This document shows, piece by piece, positions 7,684-9,072 of a stretch of DNA of 14,297 bases; the stretch's first letter is position 1, and each line of letters opens with the position of its first letter. The stretch covers positions 1 to 14,297 of the forward strand of contig JANXEM010000034.1 of the NCBI GenBank assembly GCA_025058435.1, written 5' to 3'. The notes under the pieces were generated by a model. That model did not search any database. It had not been told where the DNA came from and worked only from the letters and a program-made list of their open reading frames with translations. Source of the stretch: Candidatus Caldarchaeum sp. GTDB lineage: Archaea; Thermoproteota; Nitrososphaeria_A; Caldarchaeales; Caldarchaeaceae. A program made the translations under genes and the position numbers.

Positions 7684-7713
7684 TTGTATTAAGTATTTGC
7701 GTAAGGCTTTAAA
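7684..7713. promoter_or_regulatory. Divergent promoter region of lysK and the cpgS-like gene
   Basis: The palindromic TTTAAA at 7708-7713 is centred 26 bp before GTG 7736, a perfect leaderless spacing for the plus-strand gene. It is also about 33 bp before TTG 7678 on the minus strand. A second A/T-rich word, CTTAATAC read on the minus strand (about 7686-7693), could serve lysK from one of the shorter starts. Confidence 0.5.
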
Positions 7714-7735: not shown

Positions 7736-9072
7736 GTGGAAAGAGTTAAGACGGTTATAATGGGAGCGGCTGGACGCGATTGAGCCTGAAAAGGCTCCGC
7801 GAGTTCCACAACTTCAACCTTTACTTCCGCGACAGGCCCGAATATGAGGTGGTCGCGTTCACCGCCGCCCAGATACCGGGGATTGCGGGTAGAATTTATC
7901 CGTCTTCGCTCGCCGGACGGCATTATCCAAACGGCATCCCAATCTATGACGAGTCGGAACTCCCCCGAATAATCGATGAACACGCCGTCGACCTCGTGGT
8001 TTTTTCCTACAGCGACGTCAGCCACGAAGAGGTGATGCACAAGGCCTCGTTGGCGCTCGCCCACGGCGCGACCTTCATGCTTTTGGGCCCGCGTGCGACG
8101 ATGCTTAAGTCCTCGAAGAAAGTTGTCGCGGTCACCGGTGTAAAGACTGGGGTCGGAAAAAGCACTTTGTCGCGGCTGGTTGTGAGAACTTTGAAGGGGT
8201 TCGGGCTTAGGGTTGTCGTCGTTCGTCATCCCATGCCCTACGGTGTTTTGGAAAAACAGGTTGTCCAGAAGTTCGCCAGCATAGATGACGTCGAAAAACA
8301 TCGGTGCAGCGTTGAGGAGAGGGAAGAAATTGAGCCGCACGTCAGGGATGGGACGGTTGTCTTCGCGGGAGTAGACTACGGCCTTGTCCTCCAGAAAGCC
8401 GAAAAAATGGCCGACGTCATCGTCTGGGATGGGGGCAACAACGACTTTCCGTTTTTCAAGCCAGACCTACACGTAACGGTCGTGGACGCGACAAGGCCCG
8501 GCCTCGAAAGCTTGAGTTATCCCGGGGAAACCAACGTCCTGATGGCGGATTTGCTCGTAATCCATAAAGCCGATAAAACTTCTGCAGAAAATTTGGAAAA
8601 ACTTGCTGAAAAGCTGCGGAACATGAATTCGAAGGCGGAAATTGTTGTGACGGCTTCGGAGACGGTCGTCGACGGCGACGTTAAGGGGTTGCGGGTTGCG
8701 GTGGTTGAAGACGGGCCTTCGCTGACCCACGGCGTAATGGCCGTGGGCGTTGCGTATGAAACCGCCGTAGCGGCTGGAGCGGTTGTCGTCGACCCCAAGC
8801 CATACGCAGTGGGCTCCATCGCCGAAGCCTACAAGGAATACAGCCACATCGGCCCCGTCGTCCCGTCGGTGGGATACACGGAGGAGCAGCTAAAGGATTT
8901 GGAAAAAACCCTCAAAAACGTTCCCGCGGATGCAATAGTTTCGTCGAGCCCGGCGGATTTGTCGAAGGTTGTCAGCGTCGGAAAACCCTTTATCCGCGTA
9001 CGGTTTGAGGCCGTTCAGGTCGGGGGAAGGCCTCTGTCAGAGATTCTCGGCACCCTTTTCGCGGAGACCTGA
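7736..9072 (+). CDS. cpgS: Cyclic 2,3-diphosphoglycerate synthetase family protein, gene interrupted by a BHB intron
   Basis: The coding sequence is 7736-7780 joined to 7804-9072 (437 residues after splicing). The family (COG2403-type) has a P-loop ATPase/GTPase domain. The characterised methanogen member makes cyclic 2,3-diphosphoglycerate, a thermoprotective solute, but most members are untested. Visible conserved segments include AFTAAQIPGIAGR, FSYSDVSHEEVMHKAS, LLGPRATMLKSSK, the P-loop GVKTGVGKST (spliced residues 127-136), RHPMPYG, VWDGGNNDFPFFKPDL, VEDGPSLTHG and DPKPYAVGSI. The conserved N-terminus, MERVKTVIMGAAGRD, is encoded from GTG 7736 and then hits TGA at 7781. Removing 7781-7803 restores GAAGRDFHNFN in frame. 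Without splicing, only a start inside the intron (TTG 7780) would be possible, and it loses the N-terminal strand. The 3' end overlaps the convergent lysJ by 36 bp. Confidence 0.88.
7781..7803 (+). other. Putative 23-nt archaeal bulge-helix-bulge intron in a protein-coding gene
   Basis: The fold seen directly in the sequence is as follows. The outer exon helix is TGGA 7771-7774 with TCCA 7805-7808. The central 4-bp helix is CGCG 7775-7778 with CGCG 7798-7801. The 3-nt bulges are ATT 7779-7781 and AGT 7802-7804. The inner helix is GAGCC 7782-7786 with GGCTC 7793-7797, closed by loop TGAAAA. The strand order is the same as in archaeal pre-tRNA introns. Cutting each bulge between its second and third base removes 7781-7803, including the in-frame TGA, and joins GAT to TTC. 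This restores reading frame and family consensus exactly. Splicing itself is inferred. Confidence 0.85.

Follow-up and report, generated by a model that had tools for sequence, protein, structure and literature searches.

How does a gene whose reading frame breaks fifteen codons from its start, within a motif that its protein family keeps, give rise to a full-length product? The question is posed by a gene for a GTPase or cyclic 2,3-diphosphoglycerate (cDPG) synthetase-like protein in a stretch of Candidatus Caldarchaeum DNA of 14,297 nucleotides (the window), the gene content of which includes lysine/arginine-type biosynthesis genes and TgtA. The nearest matches to the interrupted gene are three Candidatus Caldarchaeum proteins with 87-88% identity. 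As the initial annotation had it, the frame from GTG 7736 runs into a TGA at 7781-7783 and the rest of the protein resumes in a different frame, with FHNFN from 7804, and continues to a stop at 9070-9072. When GAT|TTC is joined on paper, GAAGRDFHNFN and a single frame of 437 codons result. The 23 nucleotides between are, with high confidence, a predicted mRNA intron of the bulge-helix-bulge (BHB) type, which the archaeal tRNA-splicing endonuclease would cut out, with an RtcB-type ligase joining the exons so that GAT|TTC restores the motif (Table 1).

Table 1. Features of the interrupted gene, with positions in the window
Feature	Position	Strand	Evidence and remarks
TATA-like TTTAAA (predicted)	7708..7713	+	28 to 23 nt before GTG
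Exon 1	7736..7780	+	GTG start, 15 codons; reads VERVKTVIMGAAGRD, ends GAAGRD
Outer helix, 5' strand UGGA, exonic	7771..7774	+	fold; three of four pairs invariant, the fourth, outermost, unpaired in 2 of 6 sequences
Central helix, 5' strand CGCG, 4 bp, exonic	7775..7778	+	fold; pairing in 100% of cells, both-side change in one pair
5' bulge AUU	7779..7781	+	fold; predicted cut after 7780
Intron (predicted), 23 nt	7781..7803	+	broken frame, fold, same-site inserts in relatives, covariation
Inner helix, 5' strand GAGCCU	7782..7787	+	fold; first five pairs scored, 100% paired, both-side change in three of them
Inner helix, 3' strand AGGCUC	7792..7797	+	fold and covariation scoring
Central helix, 3' strand CGCG, intronic	7798..7801	+	fold and covariation scoring
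3' bulge AGU	7802..7804	+	fold; predicted cut after 7803
Exon 2 with stop	7804..9072	+	remaining 422 codons; GTPase / cDPG synthetase-like; PF02492 (CobW) above cut-off
Outer helix, 3' strand UCCA, exonic	7805..7808	+	fold and covariation scoring

The protein family supplies the standard against which the join can be judged. Among the 120 homologues listed (8000 were scored), 103 have GAAGRDFH within their first 60 residues, so that alignment of the family confirms the motif and the junction matches it, both of which had been proposed from the single sequence. The other 17, P0001-P0016 and P0030, are truncated; they include every one of the 16 best matches, and those that are named are all Caldarchaeum. 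All 17 begin inside or past the insert site, with MSLKRLR[ED]FHNFN, MKKLREFHNFN (P0004), MKSHEFHNFN (P0007), HNFN (partial) or VAFTAAQIPG, and two start later still. The N-termini of P0004 and P0007 look as they should if a gene caller had taken the 3' end of an insert for the start of a protein, and the 17 entries are probably wrong N-terminally in databases, with the first exon missed. In the window protein and 11 members picked from the 120, G10-A11-A12-G13-R14-D15-F16-H17 is invariant, and the point of insertion is precisely the D15/F16 boundary. The name cDPG synthetase, as used in the initial annotation, is a loose one: there is a distant match to the solved enzymes (9sxb with an E value of 2e-14 over residues 69-320; 8oru and 8ork with 0.00099), but the names given at source are GTPase for some entries and cyclic 2,3-diphosphoglycerate synthase for others. 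The exon-2 frame had no match among NCBIfam models at an E value of 0.001.

The minimum-energy fold of the region is a BHB of -19.1 kcal/mol, equalled by 3 of 200 shuffles. Its outer helix of 4 bp, central CGCG/CGCG helix of 4 bp and two 3-nt bulges are as first described; the inner helix has 6 bp and not 5, and is closed by a GAAA loop. A scan with limits set to the strength of the window motif itself (outer helix at least 4, central 4 and inner at least 6 Watson-Crick pairs, intron at most 60 nt) detects exactly one such motif on the two strands of the window, and any at all in just 1 of 60 dinucleotide-shuffled windows. With the same limits the 1.68 Mb of the relative G004 yield two motifs, one of them the intron at the same site and the other, by reading, open in frame without a stop. 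A search of the window for group I or group II intron cores with Rfam at gathering score returned a tRNA as sole match, and 23 nt is in any case too little for a ribozyme core.

Relatives were sought in the order and in the class of the genome G001, which provided the same 44 genomes both times. A scan of contigs with the aligned query had listed at least 80 loci, none of those listed being titled Caldarchaeum, and one of these, L003 (Pelearchaeum), served as entry to the class search. The gene is present in 20 of the 44 genomes, in 15 without interruption (13 with GAAGRDFH and two, G021 and G022, with GAGGRDFH) and in five with an insert at the exact site, of 23 nt in G002, 24 in G003, 27 in both G004 and G005 and 26 in G006. 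Each insert brings a frameshift or an in-frame stop; an automated full-length match crosses one stop in G003, G004, G005 and G006, and begins at residue 14 in G002. Joining of the exons gives 437 residues for the window and for G002, 435 for G004, 436 for G005 and, up to the contig end, 355 for G003, and in G006 the exon-1 frame was found and exon 2 is open. Sequencing error, which had been considered unlikely at the outset, is ruled out by the second genome, G002 (L082), with the identical 23 nt and an exon 2 whose DNA is identical at 1101 of 1266 positions. Between these two loci the intron is identical at 23 of 23 nt, to be compared with 87% for exon 2 and 80% (48/60) for the 60 nt that precede the start codon; chance may account for the identity of the intron, or it may point to a constraint additional to pairing.

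The notion of a decaying pseudogene or a recent insertion, folded by chance, has the interrupted frame of the genomic sequence in its favor, but it is scarcely credible given an exon 2 that is open over 422 codons with a protein 87% identical to that of G002, same-site inserts in five genomes, and a motif met in so few shuffled windows.

In a tree the window groups with G002, G003, G004 and G005 in a single clade (100/99), and G006 is unresolved beside that clade and intronless sequences, so that the intron label needs two changes on the tree. The insert pattern GGG...CCCCACGA is common to G003-G006. The tree is compatible with one or more gains, and the common pattern favors a single one; probably one gain close to the base of Caldarchaeum was followed by retention.

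The insert sequence diverges while the BHB structure is conserved, as four of five measures on a small sample of six DNA sequences show (the window and G002-G006, with five distinct inserts; 13 pairs and 78 cells, five pairs of the inner helix being scored). Cells are paired to 100% in the central and inner helices and to 91.7% in the outer one, 97.4% of the 78 overall, and pairing drops to 35.9-51.3% when the structure is slid by 1-3 columns, an edge that would tend to arise in any case because the scored structure was drawn from the same six sequences. The covariation score and the percentage paired were reached by none of 500 shuffles. Changes on both sides are found in 4 of the 13 pairs, a number matched by 16 of 500 shuffles; an insertion at the same site with compensating helix changes, which the initial annotation had suggested looking for, is present in relatives. 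The number of pair types gives no support since 248 of 500 shuffles reach it. The third central pair is instructive, being C-G in the window and G002 and U-A in the other four: on the exon side it falls at the third position of an arginine codon (CGC or CGT), and so the exon change is silent, and is accompanied by the matching change in the intron. The canonical form, with two 3-nt bulges on opposite strands and the 4-bp exon-intron helix between them, is the minimum-energy fold in five of the six sequences; for G005 a 2-nt 3' bulge with a shifted outer helix is preferred. For G003 the fold does not stand out from shuffles, 31 of 200 of which do equally well; for the other five sequences the corresponding number is 0-4 of 200.

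Gene callers place the start of the protein within the insert, at TTG 7780 (MSLKRLREFHNFN), or further down, which would leave the frame upstream unused. A TTG is present in the window and in G002, and database proteins do start in such places, P0001-P0003 with the MSLKRLR[ED] sequence given above and P0006, P0008-P0014 and P0016 at VAFTAAQIPG or one to two residues around it. However, G003, G004, G005 and G006 have no ATG, GTG or TTG from the last in-frame stop to FHN. With four of six sequences lacking a start codon there, the annotated intronic TTG start is not a general explanation, and the possibility that relatives truly start at this TTG, named initially as one that would overturn the intron, fails as a general account. 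A start at the TTG would also discard the part of the invariant motif that lies in exon 1, where the codons for the last seven residues, MGAAGRD, differ only synonymously in all six sequences; on this comparison exon 1 is constrained as protein. A start within or beyond the insert is thus highly unlikely.

A different way of keeping the insert out of the protein would be for ribosomes to bypass it in an unspliced RNA, helped by the hairpin, as known for phage T4 gene 60, where matched take-off and landing codons are the defining feature. The insert is short and has a hairpin, a stop directly follows the last exon-1 codon in the window and G002, and GAC and GAT, two codons for the same residue, flank the gap in two of the six sequences, G004 and G005. 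Yet the codon before the insert and that before FHN are identical in none of the six (GAT/GAG, GAT/GAG, GAC/GAG, GAC/GAT, GAC/GAT and GAT/GAA), and bypassing has no need of two 3-nt bulges around a compensated 4-bp exon-intron helix, all of which makes it exceedingly improbable.

Removal of the insert by splicing, the preferred reading, would proceed as follows. Transcription would start at or next to GTG 7736 and give a leaderless mRNA. A T/A-rich hexamer begins 25-30 nt before the exon-1 start in all six sequences, the hexamers having been picked by eye with no chance control. Under the archaeal promoter spacing rule such a distance is expected for a leaderless transcript, and the placement of TTTAAA fits one from 7736 or near. 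The BHB is predicted to form in the transcript, the endonuclease would cut between bases 2 and 3 of the bulge on each strand, and RtcB would seal the exons into a single message of 437 codons. Translation of the unspliced message would yield a peptide of 15 residues in the window and G002 and of 17-20 residues in G003, G004 and G005; as it stops after 15 codons in the window, the full enzyme should depend on splicing.

Endonuclease genes (PF01974) number two in G001, G002 and G004-G007, and one was found in G003. The alpha subunit of G004 matches that of Aeropyrum pernix (3p1z_B; E value of 2.6e-51), keeps the catalytic-triad histidine and has, with positions counted by hand, K36 aligned to Lys44 of the Crenarchaea-specific loop, a lysine of a type that confers broad substrate specificity on the endonuclease (PMC6379350). 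The beta subunit matches 1a79 and, as read from the alignment, has no histidine there. By sequence, the relatives encode a two-subunit, Aeropyrum-like endonuclease, of a type that may act on substrates other than tRNA; for the host of the window such an enzyme is presumed, because the genes were read in the genomes of relatives. In the intronless G001 (L108/L081) and G007 (L109/L085) the gene for the weaker-matching endonuclease subunit divergently adjoins the same GTPase gene; the window has a LysK-like gene where these two have the subunit gene. RtcB was found in four of the five intron genomes (G002, G004, G005 and G006), and a search of those five did not find it in G003. The RtcB gene of G004, G005 and G006 (L275, L276 and L277) has a large in-frame insertion, perhaps an intein, with frames of 888-964 codons.

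A candidate for splicing in another kind of transcript is a tRNA-Gln gene of G004 (534190-534304, + strand), where by our reading a BHB insert of 21 nt follows the anticodon at a distance of one base on the 3' side. ARAGORN places a 22-nt intron elsewhere in the same gene, and so two introns are possible there. Run with introns allowed, ARAGORN reports 20 genes in G004, many of the introns being doubtful; of 15 checked, 6 overlap some loose BHB. The tRNA-Gln insert and one in cbf5, considered next, suggest an active splicing pathway.

The gene cbf5 is, reportedly, where archaeal pre-mRNA introns were found by Watanabe in 2002. In all five intron genomes it is split in two at model position 70-71 (L269 in G002, L273 in G003, L272 in G004, L271 in G005 and L270 in G006), with an insert of 13-14 nt in the D codon of GHGGTLDP, removal of which gives GHGGTLDPAVSGVLP. 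Each of the five has a 9-bp outer and a 4-bp central helix; the inner helix is reduced to 0-2 bp, and fold prediction has the 5' bulge paired or merged with the loop, which makes this a relaxed form and not a canonical BHB. Across the class, cbf5 is in two pieces at the GTLD site in 26 of 44 genomes, runs through in 15 and is partial or absent in 3, the DNA having been read in six of the 26 split genomes. In G008 it runs through with an in-frame TAG, and in G010 (C1 703500-704455) the frames break at GHGGTL and resume with DPAVTGVLP. The inserts are shorter than the published cbf5 introns, which are of BHB type, occur in Sulfolobales and Desulfurococcales and have lengths of 16-44 bp (Yokobori 2009, PMC2738675). 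With published tRNA introns spanning 11-175 nt (PMC2738675) and the clade's own cbf5 inserts shorter again than the cbf5 minimum, 23 nt is not extreme, and the description of the GTPase intron as among the shortest imaginable has to be dropped.

How many more such introns might there be? The whole contig of G004 (1,680,938 bp) has 28,313 loose BHB motifs. A codon-bias filter left 137, the best 60 of which are, by reading, mostly chance joins, with the known intron absent among those listed. Strong motifs with open joined frames amount to 566, and the GTPase intron is at rank 8 (the best 70 of 566 being listed). Peptides from joined frames were also matched to relatives. A set of 31,039 queries run on 1.10 Mb left 167 (best 40 listed), a set of 40,321 from laxer motifs run on 2.07 Mb left 23 once near-duplicates were merged, and in both comparisons the GTPase intron ranks first. 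By reading, no other protein-coding join with convincing matches on both sides was found among the rows listed; a tRNA-Gln insert also emerged. Three candidates were rejected on reading: at 1401587 the unspliced frame fits the relative better, at 1192446 there is an ordinary TFB zinc ribbon, and at 1499160 the frame is open unspliced. The scan falls short of being exhaustive, as its references cover about half of one intronless relative, G010 (780 kb of 1.57 Mb); it missed cbf5, as the inner helix there is below the first limit and the known reference copies are themselves interrupted.

Tentatively, and with the balance somewhat against it, Caldarchaeum may keep a few mRNA BHB introns, in at least the GTPase gene and cbf5, each exactly in an active-site motif, with the endonuclease gating enzyme production in that a leaderless message would specify just a peptide of 15-20 residues until spliced. 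Such introns would then be commoner in archaea than thought, overlooked because gene callers trim the first exon. If the intron is real, BHB introns of pre-mRNA can arise and persist beyond cbf5 and beyond the classical Crenarchaeota, and a search route suggests itself, namely families in which all members from one clade lose the same N-terminal motif.

In the literature searched, no paper was found for diphosphoglycerate synthetase, intron and archaea together. An RNA-seq study of about 2013 is said to have dealt with unusual archaeal transcripts and could hold further cases. Two papers name no protein gene of archaea other than cbf5 as carrying a BHB intron (PMC7714728, 2020; PMC4810243, 2016), and the main text of a paper on Caldiarchaeum tRNA introns is without mention of mRNA or cbf5 (PMC3293823). 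No coding-sequence BHB intron besides those of cbf5 and a viral case cited in PMC2738675 was found in the literature searched, which had most subscription journals outside it. The initial view that archaeal mRNA introns are few, with cbf5 the best known and none in this family, agrees with the literature searched, which names cbf5 and the viral case alone, and so the Caldarchaeum case would, within that literature, be a known kind of intron, of the cbf5 pre-mRNA type, that occurs in a second gene and in another lineage.

Comparison with the known systems bears on both likeness and difference. Like cbf5 introns (PMC2738675), that of the GTPase gene is a short BHB in a protein gene, too small to hold a nuclease gene, and is predicted to be cut between the second and third bases of the bulges; it too disrupts a functional residue, in a lineage with a hetero-oligomeric endonuclease. 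Unlike published cbf5 introns, it is in a different gene, site and lineage, and its BHB is mostly canonical, with two 3-nt bulges, whereas those newly described for cbf5 in PMC2738675 are unconventional with two exceptions. The helix-bulge geometry equals that of archaeal pre-tRNA introns, for instance the 21-nt one in the tRNA-Gln of G004, but here the insert sits in an mRNA and interrupts codons. The 12-bp sequences that PMC2738675 cites as putative introns of protein genes in an archaeal virus are likewise very short, intron-like and in a coding gene; on that account their splicing is undemonstrated and functional proteins are possible with the insert, in contrast to the Caldarchaeum inserts, each of which breaks the protein, and clade-wide. 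The BHB of HVO_1309 in Haloferax (PMC7714728) is, as proposed for the Caldarchaeum intron, an mRNA substrate of the splicing endonuclease, but it is in the 5'-UTR and the Caldarchaeum intron would be within the coding sequence.
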